Assembly: GCF_017311415.1 (NCBI RefSeq)
Contig: NZ_JAEKIS010000005.1
Coordinates: forward strand, 1 to 64,000
Length of the DNA stretch: 64,000 bases
Direction: 5' to 3'
From: Salipiger abyssi
GTDB taxonomy: Bacteria; Pseudomonadota; Alphaproteobacteria; Rhodobacterales; Rhodobacteraceae
This document shows, one piece after another, positions 26,391 through 51,518 of the stretch. How positions within the stretch are numbered: position 1 is the stretch's first letter; every line of letters begins with the position of its first letter. The notes beneath the pieces are model-generated. The model was not told where the DNA came from and did no database searches. It was given only the letters and a program-made list of their open reading frames with translations. The translations under genes were made by a program, and so were the position numbers.

Positions 26391-26523
26391 CGATGGGCCG
26401 GGCAATGTCGCCCGGAGAGACTTCGCCGCTCGTGAATGCTCCTCCCAAAGACACCACAACCCGGCTCTGGACCCGGCGCTTGCAGTCGCCCCCAAAGCAC
26501 CGCGTCATGATCCCTAAAAGCCT

Positions 26524-39813: not shown

Positions 39814-40884
<1,071 letters not shown>

Positions 40885-41009
40885 GTCTCGTCCTTTCCCT
40901 ATACGCAAACCGACGTAAGGTCACATTGCGGTGGATGCAATCCTCGCCCAGATTGCGCCTAATTATTACGCTTAACGCCTTGCTTTCGCTCAGCTCCCCG
41001 CCAAAAACC

Positions 41010-41028
41010 CTATGCGTTATCCGCATAG
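41010..41028. promoter_or_regulatory. Inverted repeat upstream of the DUF1127 gene
   Basis: CTATGCG and CGCATAG flank the spacer TTATC, about 92 bp upstream of the DUF1127 start. It may be an operator in the promoter region of the stress-RNA locus. The surrounding gap (40885-41120) holds no other recognisable signal, and I could not place a sigma-32-type promoter with acceptable spacing. Confidence 0.4.
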
Positions 41029-41120
41029 CGGCATTGTGGCTTCGCGGGATTGTGCAGTTGCAGCATTTGCCCCAAATTGGTCGCAACACCGCAATAGACC
41101 GACACAGGCAAGTTAATCAA

Positions 41121-41339
41121 ATGGCATACGCAACCGAACAGACCTCCCGCAGCCAAAGCGGTTTGACCGGACGCTTCGCCGATCTCGCCGCGGGTCTGCG
41201 CGAACATCTGGCACGGCGCCGTCTCTACAAGGAGACGTTCCGCGAACTGGCGGCGCTGAGCAACCGCGAACTTGGCGACCTGGGGCTGAACCGCTCGATG
41301 ATCCGCCGGATCGCATGGCAGGCCGCCTACGGCGCCTGA
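41121..41339 (+). CDS. DUF1127 protein, CcaF1-like
   Basis: A 72-residue basic protein of the DUF1127 family. The domain occupies the C-terminal half: RLYKETFRELAALSNRELGDLGLNRSMIRRIAWQAAY. In Rhodobacter sphaeroides the DUF1127 protein CcaF1 (71 residues) is encoded directly upstream of the CcsR1-4 small RNAs; it binds RNA and affects their maturation. This gene has the same length, family and position relative to an array of the same RNA type, so I take it as the functional counterpart. The transcript probably reads through into the array. Confidence 0.88.
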   Translation: MAYATEQTSRSQSGLTGRFADLAAGLREHLARRRLYKETFRELAALSNRELGDLGLNRSMIRRIAWQAAYGA

Positions 41340-41356
41340 CACACAGGAATTGGTTT

Positions 41357-41431
41357 CGAAGGGCTCTCTCCTCCTCCCTGAGCCCTTCGGACATCGGCGG
41401 CGGCCTCACTCCTCCTCCCGAGGCCGCCGCC
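41357..41431 (+). ncRNA. CcsR/cuckoo-type small RNA, unit 1
   Basis: Two hairpins. The first pairs 41357-41365 with 41381-41389; the second pairs 41396-41407 with 41420-41431 (12 bp). Both loops expose CCTCCTCCC. A small hairpin in the linker (41444-41457) separates it from unit 2. It starts 18 bp after the DUF1127 stop codon. The two-hairpin design with CCUCCUCCC loops is that of the CcsR RNAs of R. sphaeroides. Confidence 0.88.
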
Positions 41432-41467
41432 GCAAAGAACAAGGGGCAGAAATGCCCTAGACGACAT

Positions 41468-41540
41468 CGAAGACCCTCTCCTCCTCCCTTGGGTCTTTCG
41501 TGTCAGCGACGGTGCCTCTCCTCCTCCCTGGCACCGTCGC
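41468..41540 (+). ncRNA. CcsR/cuckoo-type small RNA, unit 2
   Basis: First hairpin: 41468-41476 with 41491-41500 (one bulged base); second: 41506-41516 with 41530-41540 (11 bp, perfect). Loops again carry CCTCCTCCC while the stems differ from unit 1. The first hairpin arm (CGAAGACCC) is shared with unit 4. Confidence 0.88.
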
Positions 41541-41571
41541 ACCCTACATCCGGGCTGAACGCCTGACAATT

Positions 41572-41644
41572 TCGGAGCCCCCTCTCCTCCTCCCTGGGGC
41601 CTTCGATACGCGGCGGGGTCTCTCCTCCTCCCTGACCCCGCCGC
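41572..41644 (+). ncRNA. CcsR/cuckoo-type small RNA, unit 3
   Basis: First hairpin: short perfect stem 41577-41581 with 41596-41600, extended imperfectly outward; second: 41610-41620 with 41634-41644 (11 bp, perfect). Both loops carry CCTCCTCCC. A linker hairpin (41655-41659 with 41665-41669) follows. Confidence 0.86.
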
Positions 41645-41676
41645 ACCGAACATAGGGGCCCGATGCCCCACCGGAA

Positions 41677-41748
41677 CGAAGACCCTCTCCTCCTCCCTGG
41701 GTCTTTCGTGACCGCGACGGGGCCTCTCCTCCTCCCTGGCCCCGTCGC
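41677..41748 (+). ncRNA. CcsR/cuckoo-type small RNA, unit 4
   Basis: First hairpin: 41677-41685 with 41699-41708 (one bulge); second: 41714-41724 with 41738-41748 (11 bp, perfect). Both loops carry CCTCCTCCC. A linker hairpin GAGCC-GCGA-GGCTC lies at 41761-41774. Confidence 0.88.
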
Positions 41749-41781
41749 ACACCACAACAAGAGCCGCGAGGCTCACCAGTT

Positions 41782-41860
41782 TCTGGAGCCCCTCTCCTCC
41801 TCCCTGGGGTGTCTGGAAAATCGACGGCGGTGCCCTCTCCTCCTCCCTGGGCACCGCCGT
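41782..41860 (+). ncRNA. CcsR/cuckoo-type small RNA, unit 5
   Basis: First hairpin: 41788-41792 with 41806-41810 (includes a G-U pair), weakly extended; it is the least regular of the ten. Second: 41824-41835 with 41849-41860 (12 bp, perfect), loop CCTCCTCCC, followed by a T-rich tail that ends the array. Confidence 0.85.
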
Positions 41861-41871
41861 TTCCTTTTCTC
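41824..41871 (+). terminator. Terminator of the small-RNA array
   Basis: The last hairpin of unit 5 has a 12-bp GC-rich stem directly followed by TTTCCTTTTCT, so it doubles as an intrinsic terminator. This would separate the array from valS, whose ATG lies 117 bp further on. Confidence 0.75.
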
Positions 41872-41987
41872 CCCCCTGCTCATGACCGCTCATCCGCCGC
41901 AGGACGGCCCGGATTCGCGGCCTTCCCCTTCCCCACGGCTTTCGATAGACGAGACGGGACGACAGATGCAGGCACGGGAAGACACCC

Positions 41988-44900
41988 ATGGCGATGGAAA
42001 AGACATTCGACGCAGGCCAGGCCGAGGCGCGGATCTACGAGGCATGGGAGAAGGCGGGCGCCTTCAAGGCCGGGGCCAACGCCTCGCGCTCTGAAACCTT
42101 CAGCATCATGATCCCGCCGCCCAATGTGACGGGCTCGCTGCATATGGGCCATGCGTTCAACAACACCTTGCAGGATATCCTGATCCGCTGGCACCGCATG
42201 CGCGGCTTCGACACGCTGTGGCAGCCCGGTCAGGACCATGCGGGCATTGCCACCCAGATGGTGGTCGAGCGTAAACTGGCGCAGGAGCAGCAACCCTCCC
42301 GCCGCGAGATGGGGCGCGAGGCCTTCACCGCGAAGATCTGGGAATGGAAGCAGCAATCAGGCGGCACCATCATCAACCAGCTCAAGCGGCTGGGCGCCTC
42401 CTGCGACTGGTCGCGCAACGCCTTCACCATGTCCGGCGCCGAAGGGGCGCCCGCGGGCGAAGAGGGCAATTTCCACGATGCGGTGATCAAGGTCTTTGTC
42501 GACATGTACGACAAGGGGCTGATCTATCGCGGCAAGCGGCTGGTGAACTGGGATCCGCATTTCGAGACCGCGATCTCCGATCTCGAGGTCGAGAATATCG
42601 AGGTGCCGGGCCATATGTGGCACTTCAAATACCCGCTCGCCGGAGGCGAGACCTATGAGTATTTGGAGAAAGATGAAGACGGCAACGTGCTCTTCCGCGA
42701 GGAGCGCGATTACATCTCCATCGCCACCACCCGCCCCGAGACCATGCTGGGCGACGGCGCCGTCGCGGTGCACCCCTCGGACGAACGCTATGCGCCCATC
42801 GTCGGCAAGCTCTGCGAGATCCCGGTGGGGCCGAAGAAACACCGCCGGCTGATTCCCATTATCACCGACGACTACCCCGATCCCGATTTCGGCTCGGGCG
42901 CGGTGAAGATCACCGGCGCGCATGATTTCAACGACTATCAGGTCGCCAAGCGCGGCGGCATCCCGATGTACCGGCTGATGGACACGCGCGGCACCATGCG
43001 CGAGGACGGCAAGCCTTATGCGGATTGCGCCGAGATCGCGCAGCAGGTCGCGCGCGGCGAGCTGGAGCTGACCGAGGCCGAGGCGGATGCGATCAACCTG
43101 GTGCCCGACCATCTGCGCGGGCTCGACCGGTTCGAGGCGCGCGAGGCGGTGATCCGCGAGATCACCGAAGAGGGTCTCGCGGTGATGACCGAGGTGACCG
43201 ACACGCGGCTCGGCGCTGCGGCGGGCAAGGCGCCGGTCGCCCCCGAAGAGGGCGGGGAGGCGCGCGACGAAGAGGCGCAATGGGTGCCCCTGGTCGAGTC
43301 GAAACCGATCATGCAGCCCTTTGGCGACCGCTCCAAGGTGGTGATCGAGCCGATGCTCACCGACCAGTGGTTCGTCGATACCGCCAAGATCGTCGGCCCG
43401 GCGCTCGACGCGGTGAAGGACGGCACGGTCAGGATCCTGCCCGAGAGCGGCGAGAAGACCTATTACCACTGGCTGGAGAATATCGAGCCCTGGTGCATCT
43501 CGCGTCAGCTCTGGTGGGGGCATCAGATCCCGGTCTGGCACACCCCCGGCTTTGGCGGCGAATGGCGCAGCTTCTGCGCCGCGACCGAGGAAGAGGCGCT
43601 GGCCAAGATGCGCGATTTCTTCGGCTTCTTCGGTGAGGATACCGAGTTCCTCCTCGTCGAGGATGCCGCCGCCGCCGAGGATCTGCTCGCCGACCTGCTG
43701 TCGCAGGGCACCGATTACACCGGCGTCGATCAGCGCCGACGCGCGCAGGCGATCCCGGTCTTCCGCGATCCGGACGTGCTCGACACCTGGTTCAGCTCGG
43801 GCCTCTGGCCGATCGGCACGCTGGGCTGGCCGGAAAAGACCCCCGAGCTGGAGAAATACTTCCCCACCGACGTGCTGGTGACCGGGCAGGACATCCTGTT
43901 CTTCTGGGTTGCGCGCATGATGATGATGCAGCTCGCCGTGGTGGACGAGATCCCGTTCCACACGGTCTATCTGCATGGGCTCGTGCGCGACGCCAAGGGC
44001 AAGAAGATGTCCAAGTCGCTCGGCAATGTGGTCGATCCGCTTGAGATCATCGACGAATACGGCGCCGACGCGCTGCGCTTTACCAATGCCGCCATGGCAA
44101 GCCTCGGTGGCGTGCTGAAGCTCGATATGCAGCGCATCGCCGGCTACCGGAATTTCGGCACCAAGCTGTGGAATGCCGCGCGCTTTGCCGAGATGAACGA
44201 GGCGGTGGGGCTCGGGGGCGGCATGCCGCAACCGCAGGCCACGGTGAACAAGTGGATCCTCGGCGAGACCGCCCGTGTCCGCGAGACCGTCGATGCGGCG
44301 CTGGAGGAATACCGGTTCAACGACGCGGCGCAGGCGCTTTACGCCTTTGTCTGGGGCGTGGTCTGCGACTGGTATGTCGAGTTCTCCAAACCCCTCCTGC
44401 AAGGCGAGGATGCGGCGGCCCGGGCCGAGACGCAGGCCACCATGTCCTGGGTCATCGACCAGTGCCTGATCCTGCTGCACCCGATCATGCCCTTCATCAC
44501 CGAAGAGGTCTGGGGCACGCTGGGCGAACGCTCCAAGATGCTGATCCATGCCGACTGGCCGGTCTACACGACCGAGGAGCTTCTCGATCCGGCCGCCGAT
44601 GCCGAGATGACCTGGGTGATCTCGCTGATTGAGGGCGTGCGCTCGGCGCGGGCGCAGATGCATGTGCCGGTGGGGCTCTACGTGCCGGTGCTGGTGAGCG
44701 AAATCGACGCCGCCGGCGAGGCCGCCTGGACCAATAACGAGACGCTGATCAAGCGGCTGGCGCGACTCGAAAGCCTCACCAAGGTCGAGAGCTTCCCCAA
44801 GGGCACGGTCACCGTGCCGGTGGGCGGCGCGGTCTTTGGCCTGCCGCTGGCCGATATCATCGATGTCGAGGAGGAAAAGGCCCGGCTCGAAAAGGGAATC

Positions 44901-51233: not shown

Positions 51234-51271
51234 AAAAAAGCCCCACCCGCGGTCAAGCGAAAGGGGCTTTC
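51234..51271 (-). terminator. Intrinsic terminator in the metZ leader (attenuator)
   Basis: An 8-bp stem (51237-51244 with 51263-51270) which, on the minus strand, ends in a run of six T. It lies 7 nt downstream of the SAM-II aptamer and upstream of metZ, so it is the expression platform of the riboswitch. Confidence 0.8.
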
Positions 51272-51277
51272 GTCCGA

Positions 51278-51331
51278 CCTCTTTAGCGGCTTGTTTAACG
51301 TGGCCCGCAATCCGGTAACAAAGCGCCACGC
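51278..51331 (-). promoter_or_regulatory. SAM-II riboswitch upstream of metZ
   Basis: On the minus strand P1 pairs CGTGGC (51330-51325) with GCCACG (51304-51299), enclosing TTTGTTACCGGATTGC. P1 is followed by TTAAACAAGCCGCTAAAGAGG minus its last base. Both segments line up with the conserved SAM-II pieces UUUAACCGUAUUGCA and UAAAUGUAGCUAAAAAGG. Position ahead of metZ is classic for this RNA in alphaproteobacteria. Binding of SAM should favour the downstream terminator. Confidence 0.8.
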
Positions 51332-51518
51332 GCAGCGCCTTACGCCTGCCCGGCGCCTGCGTCAAGCTGCCCCCTTGTATCGGCGCATGGAGGCCGCTGC
51401 ACTTTCAAGCGTTTGTTATCGTATTGGGCATAGATGCGCATAACACGCGCGCGACAGCTGTTGTCATTGACCGGTCGGCTGGCACATCATGTTGCGGATT
51501 GAGTGAAATGGGACGGGT

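Follow-up and report, generated by a model that had tools for sequence, protein, structure and literature searches.

Downstream of a short gene of Salipiger abyssi (assembly GCF_017311415.1, contig NZ_JAEKIS010000005.1), hairpins with the same loop follow one another in a compact tandem array, which raises the questions to what kind of element this array belongs, how it is expressed, and on what it acts. The stretch of DNA that was analysed, positions 1 to 64,000 of the forward strand of this contig, is referred to here as the window.

The sequence CTCCTCCTCCC is encountered ten times in the window, exclusively on the + strand and within 41368-41847, where dinucleotide shuffles predict 0.07 occurrences and 0 of 100 shuffles reached ten. 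Local folding pairs the arms flanking each of the ten loops and groups the hairpins as five pairs. The ten same-loop hairpins and five two-hairpin units described in a first-pass annotation are thereby confirmed, and the period that it gave, 104-111 bp, had to be corrected to 103-111 bp (first loops are spaced 110, 106, 103 and 107 bp apart, second loops 109, 104, 104 and 111 bp). The array and its flanking genes are as follows.

39814-40908, - strand: gene for an Mrp/ApbC-type ATPase, divergent from the DUF1127 gene (NCBIfam models, all below cut-offs)
41121..41339, + strand: ccaF1-like gene for a 72-aa DUF1127 protein (Pfam PF06568, 48.8 bits, cut-off 23.3)
41353..41435, + strand: unit 1, two hairpins (loops 41368, 41409; Rfam CcsR1 47.2 bits, E 3.1e-10, full length; ar14 52.9 bits; both below gathering)
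41443..41458, + strand: linker mini-hairpin 1, GGGGCAGAAATGCCCT (linker survey and region fold)
41463..41545, + strand: unit 2 (loops 41478, 41518; Rfam CcsR1 50.5 bits, E 3.2e-11, below gathering)
41551..41565, + strand: linker mini-hairpin 2, CGGGCTGAACGCCTG (linker survey and region fold)
41568..41649, + strand: unit 3 (loops 41584, 41622; Rfam CcsR1 46.1 bits, E 6.6e-10, below gathering)
41655..41669, + strand: linker mini-hairpin 3, GGGGCCCGATGCCCC (linker survey and region fold)
41673..41753, + strand: unit 4 (loops 41687, 41726; Rfam CcsR1 46.5 bits, E 4.9e-10, below gathering)
41761..41774, + strand: linker mini-hairpin 4, GAGCCGCGAGGCTC (linker survey and region fold; a terminator scan lists the same inverted repeat as terminator-like on the - strand)
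41779..41865, + strand: unit 5 (loops 41794, 41837; Rfam CcsR1 46.9 bits, E 3.9e-10, below gathering)
41824..41870, + strand: hairpin 10 with a TTTCCTTTTCT tail (41860-41870), probable transcript terminator (sequence and fold)
From 41988: valS, downstream of the array (NCBIfam valine--tRNA ligase, above cut-off)

The DUF1127 gene ends at 41339, approximately 15 nt before the first hairpin, and no NCBIfam family was found for its protein. The position of the five copies beside valS, as annotated earlier, is borne out by the NCBIfam match and the valS start. The shorter sequence CTCCTCCC at 26439 (+), 63697 (+) and 14449 (-) gave no such hairpin on folding. A long reverse-strand open frame at 41327-41989 overlaps the array and is probably the repeat read backwards. 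Elsewhere in the window, a SAM_alpha riboswitch lies at 51262-51339 on the - strand (62.4 bits).

Folding of 41340-41880 yielded -274.1 kcal/mol, versus -189.1 ± 5.9 kcal/mol for 100 shuffles (z = -14.4); hairpin 9 is by this prediction the weakest of the ten, since it pairs differently in the whole-region fold. When the ten hairpins were aligned, 84.5% of the pair cells held standard pairs versus 61.8% after shuffling (0 of 500 shuffles as high), both-sided changes were found at 9 of the 11 pairs (5 of 500 shuffles reached 9), and the covariation score was 0.667 versus 0.245 in shuffles (0 of 500) and 0.08-0.22 in slid controls. Among hairpins of fetched arrays with the exact loop TCTCCTCCTCCCT (807 instances with 445 distinct arm pairs, these being related sequences whose counts are not independent events), 68-96% of the arm pairs were paired per level at levels 2-11, versus 41-68% with shuffled arms, and the closing pair was nearly fixed, at a modest excess (0.888 versus 0.835 shuffled). 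Covariation in both sets agrees with the earlier view that structure is kept more than sequence. Its description of ten different stems holds insofar as the arms vary yet pair, but not all stems are unrelated, as units 2 and 4 share 82% identity when the loops are left out. A chance origin of the array was ruled out by the loop count, the folding z-score, and the covariation relative to shuffles.

At gathering cut-offs, Rfam gave no match within the array. With an E-value cut-off, CcsR1 (RF02791) matched all five units at full length with 46.1-50.5 bits (E 3.2e-11 to 6.6e-10; gathering 65.3), and ar14 (RF02344) matched all five with 40.6-52.9 bits (E < 1e-5; gathering 58.8), scores that at these units lean on the shared loop. 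The covariance-model search with cuckoo-type families that had been proposed thus recovered every unit with both models, but below the curated cut-offs. Each unit contains the two hairpins with the CCUCCUCCC loop that characterize CcsR RNAs, the array as a whole presents the adjacent hairpins with this common loop and variable stems that characterize ar14/cuckoo RNAs, and a short DUF1127 gene lies directly upstream on the same strand, as in a CIN1 locus. The sub-gathering Rfam matches, the Pfam DUF1127 match, the covariation and the published descriptions (PMC3927594, PMC10253847, PMC10746234) uphold the annotation of CcsR/cuckoo RNAs behind a ccaF1-like gene, and the array is a real and well conserved further member of the known CcsR/cuckoo ("CIN1") kind of sRNA.

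The closest described counterpart is the locus of Rhodobacter (Cereibacter) sphaeroides, named CIN1, for which ccaF1, CcsR1-4 (RF02791; former RSs0680a-d), an RpoHI/RpoHII promoter and processing by RNase E have been described, together with RNA binding by CcaF1 and its effect on CcsR levels and sRNA maturation (PMC10253847). Moreover, CcsR interacts with Hfq, and CcsR1-4 target the flhR mRNA in this organism (PMC8307010). Compared by description, both loci consist of a DUF1127 gene followed by co-directional two-hairpin units with CCUCCUCCC loops, with an RpoH-like promoter and a likely end terminator, whereas five units are present here and four in R. sphaeroides, and the scores obtained here fall below RF02791 gathering. 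The rhizobial RNAs ar14/NfeR1/SmelA075 and SmelA099 (RF02344) also carry CCUCCUCCC-loop hairpins on variable stems; the loop motif, its anti-Shine-Dalgarno (anti-SD) nature, the variable stems and processed, stress-induced forms have been described for SmelA075/SmelA099 and RS0680a (PMC3927594). In the ar14/NfeR1 group, anti-SD silencing was tested for NfeR1, an ar14 member that lowers an ntrB reporter via its CCUCCUCCC seeds, while a seed mutant does not (PMC10746234). This group differs from the present array in having three or four hairpins per RNA and an RpoD/LsrB promoter, and the accessible text on it mentions no DUF1127 gene. The cuckoo RNA family and CIN1 locus (Reinkensmeier and Giegerich 2015; known through citing papers) are described as CcsR-like sRNAs beside a short DUF1127 gene, and there, as here, loops are kept and stems have diverged.

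A three-loop pattern scan of genome contigs yielded at least 118 stretches, and by name the relatives are nearly all Rhodobacterales (80 of the 118 matches listed), the exceptions among the matches listed being two Alphaproteobacteria MAGs (L107, L147), a Proteobacteria MAG (L106) and Maritalea mobilis (L090). The exact two-loop pattern was detected in 185 of 394 family genomes, a search in which a reversed-pattern control also matches some genomes. Outside the window's family the exact two-motif pattern was not found, both matches among 289 class-wide genomes being in-family, a scan that is not informative on rhizobial ar14, whose motif is shorter. Among the matches listed, arrays contain 3 to 23 loops (median 8, an even number in 94 of 118), with ten loops in 12 of the 118, more in 22 and fewer in 84; in 12 of the 118 the array touches the locus end and its count is a lower bound. 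Very long arrays are those of L198 (G207), with 26 loops in three-hairpin blocks repeating at approximately 140 bp, and L172, with 23 loops. Within the genus, 18 of 20 genomes were compared (leaving out G005, where a long gap splits the array, and G001, at a contig end), and their arrays hold 4-7 units, five being commonest (8 of 18). The array had initially been presented as expanded, a label that these numbers do not sustain, as five units are ordinary for a genus with 4-7 and at least 22 relatives exceed ten loops, up to 26.

Unit identity with the loops left out averaged 0.70 for first units, 0.75 for last units and 0.72 for inner units across species, while within an array first and inner units shared 0.58 and inner units 0.81 with each other; 4 of 78 within-array pairs of inner units were identical, and the window's own inner units are less alike (0.64-0.82). 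Because the end units are alike across species and inner units are alike within an array, the end units seem, as far as sequence comparison goes, to be kept by position, with copies gained or lost inside the array. Among the matches listed, 99 of the 103 loci that offer 700 bp or more of room have a co-directional DUF1127 gene upstream (107 of 118 overall), and mrp is divergent in 81 of 96 loci with 1500 bp of room. Four loci have the room but lack a DUF1127 match (L093, L099, L171, L176), and the promoter module described below is still present there. Synteny with valS was discarded as a family trait, since valS follows in only 13 of 92 loci with room among the matches listed. A lack of a Shine-Dalgarno sequence in ccaF1 as self-protection was likewise considered and rejected: GGAGG precedes 0 of 105 DUF1127 starts, but control genes are alike (valS 0 of 17, mrp 1 of 32, counting only starts near the expected place).

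The tiny hairpins that had been noticed in the linkers are indeed present, all four window linkers containing mini-hairpins of 5-6 bp. In a survey of 309 distinct linkers (loop distance 60-85 nt), stems of 5 or more pairs were present in 76%, versus 17% in plain letter shuffles, and stems of 4 or more pairs in 96%, versus 46%. The array repeat is therefore H1-H2-mini-hairpin, as linkers commonly keep the third element, for which a role in processing may be envisaged. A terminator at the end of the array, also claimed before, is likely in that hairpin 10 is followed by TTTCCTTTTCT when judged by eye, but it is absent from the terminator scan, which covers loops of 3-8 nt only.

Upstream of the DUF1127 gene, an alignment of 23 Salipiger-group and near loci revealed a strict shared module, which served as the source of an HMM and is composed in the window as follows.

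41010..41078, + strand: conserved promoter/operator module (23-locus alignment, HMM, consensus)
41010, + strand: CTATGC, start of the module
41023-41032, + strand: box 1, GCATAGCGGC, a degenerate CTGCN3GCAG
TTG at 41050, + strand: ATTGTGCA with TTG, -35-like
From 41052, + strand: box 2, GTGCN4GCAG
41070, + strand: CCCCAAATT, RpoH-like -10

A perfect inverted repeat, CTATGCG-TTATC-CGCATAG, occupies 41010-41028 within this module. At E<0.01 the HMM matched 107 of 118 loci among the matches listed, once each; 103 of the 107 matches lie at most 250 bp upstream of DUF1127, 4 are in loci without a DUF1127 match, and none is elsewhere. The module is found upstream of DUF1127 in all 101 loci with over 200 bp between the start of this gene and the locus end; without close kin and model sources the count is 96 of 96. 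Its consensus, rounded by eye, is ATGCa-N3-TgCtGCATaGCaGCaTTG-N10-ATTGTGCANNtGCAGCAt-N5-cccATnTT. When positions are counted by eye, the RpoHI/RpoHII promoters of R. sphaeroides as described in PMC3441632 are matched by TTG at -36 to -34, C at -14 and T at -9. A regular expression for an RpoH-like -10 matched only 22 of the 96 relatives (background 3.8% of random stretches), a looser one matched 47 of 107 promoter matches, some of them incomplete, and a sigma-70 promoter scan found nothing at the array promoter. By comparison with PMC3441632 and PMC12542648, the sigma factor is probably of the RpoH type and the boxes would be regulator sites. The TTG...CCCCAAATT element and the open linkers are compatible with the stress induction and the RNase E processing of the ccaF1 transcript that mark CcsR RNAs.

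The action of the RNAs may be sought in their loops. The genome of the window contains the 16S tail GGATCACCTCCTTTCT, and each loop holds its CCTCC core twice, in agreement with the anti-Shine-Dalgarno sequence that had been recognized there; because the loops copy the anti-SD tail, however, they would mask ribosome-binding sites and not mimic them as had been suggested. The pattern GGAGGAGN{2,9}ATG occurs at 222 sites in the genome, versus 18 for the reversed pattern. At 30 of these sites, which were picked for fit to the loop and compared by bare energies, the duplex with the loop averaged -17.8 kcal/mol versus -12.0 kcal/mol with the 16S tail, and the loop was stronger at 30 of 30. An open frame of at least 60 aa, or reaching the locus end, follows 21 of the 30 sampled GGAGGAG-ATG sites; some of the sites are not start sites, since 9 of 30 lack such a frame.

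On this basis, a single transcript would be initiated at a stress (RpoH-type) promoter approximately 35 nt ahead of the DUF1127 gene, cross the five two-hairpin units and stop at hairpin 10. Cuts in the single-stranded linkers around the mini-hairpins, in R. sphaeroides made by RNase E with involvement of CcaF1, would release five CcsR-like sRNAs, each with two loops of CUCUCCUCCUCCCU or near it that act as a double-register copy of the 16S anti-SD tail. Under stress, base pairing of these loops with the purine-rich GGAGGAG ribosome-binding sites of many mRNAs would make such messages less stable or less well translated, several units would provide a higher dose, and the stems would drift under a pairing constraint because they display the loop and shield the RNA. 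Taken as a whole, this account of a stress-induced precursor that is cut into two-hairpin anti-SD sRNAs masking ribosome-binding sites is considered very probable.

Three other explanations share part of this evidence. Tandem duplication of units, the range of 3 to 23 loops among the matches listed, and the 4 of 78 inner-unit pairs that are identical minus loops would also be expected of a REP/BIME-type repeat DNA element or low-complexity sequence arisen by chance, without RNA function, but the compensatory changes in the stems, the fixed place behind DUF1127 with one promoter module, the 10 of 10 motifs on one strand, and the matches to Rfam sRNA families make this highly improbable. It is also conceivable that the array serves mainly as a protein sponge, its loops or precursor binding the CcaF1-like protein, Hfq or RNase E, with mRNA pairing secondary. 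In 99 of the 103 relatives with room among the matches listed, the operon starts with a DUF1127 gene, and CcaF1 and Hfq are linked to CcsR in R. sphaeroides as outlined above (PMC10253847, PMC8307010). A protein site, however, would not need an exact anti-SD copy, units that occur apart from any array retain the loops at loci with 0 of 40 DUF1127 matches, and NfeR1 acts by base pairing (PMC10746234), so that a sponge is an unlikely main function.

The remaining alternative concerns the breadth of the effect: the loops could act as a general translation brake that competes with 30S ribosomes at most start sites, without a defined mRNA set. The doubled 16S CCTCC core and the approximately 200 GGAGGAG-before-ATG sites above background fit such a brake, but sRNAs are normally outnumbered by ribosomes. 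In addition, defined targets are described for related RNAs, namely flhR mRNA for CcsR1-4 (PMC8307010) and ntrB for NfeR1 (PMC10746234), and a general brake is judged improbable. The masking of ribosome-binding sites by processed two-hairpin sRNAs is thus the preferred explanation.

Besides the arrays, single units occur dispersed in genomes of the genus, of which the window's own genome provides an example.

C22:29305-29355, - strand: orphan two-hairpin unit (L039)

Together with 39 further loci this gave 40 aligned orphan units, at none of which (0 of 40, all checked) a DUF1127, mrp or valS match was found. Visual inspection shows ATGCA...CATTGTGCTGCN3GCAGCAT...CTAnnT to be common to them, together with a small 5' hairpin, H1, H2 and a pyrimidine tract. 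Applied to 133,636 bases of orphan loci, the array-promoter HMM gave 12 matches (E up to 0.14), 11 of which are immediately followed by an orphan unit on the same strand, while 29 of the 40 loci had no such match. Exact CTGCN3GCAG is present in 16 of the 40 orphan upstream windows (0.029 expected each). At least 7 of the 40 units are on plasmids (G017 C2, with two; G010 C3 and C5; G014 C3, C4 and C6), and Salipiger sp. CCB-MM3 has orphan units on three plasmids. The own-genome unit matched 15 plasmid records, from Thioclava (6), Salipiger (4), Alloyangia (3), Qingshengfaniella (1) and Haematobacter (1); the 15 best places have no annotated feature beneath, and all 15 plasmids are typed non-mobilizable. 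Eight plasmid regions (L240-L247) represent unannotated orphan units on large plasmids of these five genera, and their incomplete gene table contains no annotated DUF1127 gene.

The two TGC/GCA boxes of the module are similar to CTGCNNNGCAG, the PhaR site of R. sphaeroides, and in phaP promoters of Sinorhizobium meliloti two boxes flank the -35 (PMC12542648). Exact CTGCN3GCAG is present in 63 of 107 promoter matches, and TGCN4GCAG in 105 of 107; within 220 bp upstream in the 96 relatives, CTGCN3GCAG occurs in 56 (random 2.9%) and TGCN3-4GCAG in 96 (random 10%). Both boxes are degenerate in the window's array promoter (GCATAGCGGC, GTGCN4GCAG), and CTGCN3GCAG occurs 3 times in the whole window, about as often as expected by chance (3.05). 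A PhaR gene (PF07879, 96.5 bits) is present in the window's genome, and ATTGTGCTGCATCGCAG and TGCTGCGGTGCAGCA, an element that also occurs in orphan cuckoo promoters, lie approximately 150-180 nt before the first of two neighbouring phasin matches (C5, L252/L254), while no exact CTGCN3GCAG box was found at the third phasin match (L253) or the PhaR gene's own locus. None of the literature matches listed joins PhaR with DUF1127 or CcsR, PMC9230146 naming PhaR and DUF1127 in unrelated places. The two boxes flanking the start of the -35 and the dispersed orphan genes with a related promoter hint, at the level of sequence, at a link to carbon storage. Rhodobacterales cuckoo/CcsR RNAs may form a regulon read by PhaR, in which PhaR would hold back transcription and granules release it, output would be tied to carbon storage and stress, and plasmid copies would add dose. 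This control by PhaR, which is the novel part, is a candidate lead that we hold tentatively, at slightly less than even confidence.

The idea that five units are special is hereby corrected, and a clear example is added to a known kind of sRNA. Array size changes readily among its relatives (3 to 26 loops among the matches listed), while the loop, the promoter module, the DUF1127 gene and the end units stay. Follow-up is warranted for the promoter module, the orphan copies and the mini-hairpins. If the promoter reading is true, the link between carbon storage and a broad set of ribosome-masking sRNAs would be directly testable, and there would be a reason for the extra orphan copies on plasmids of some Rhodobacterales.
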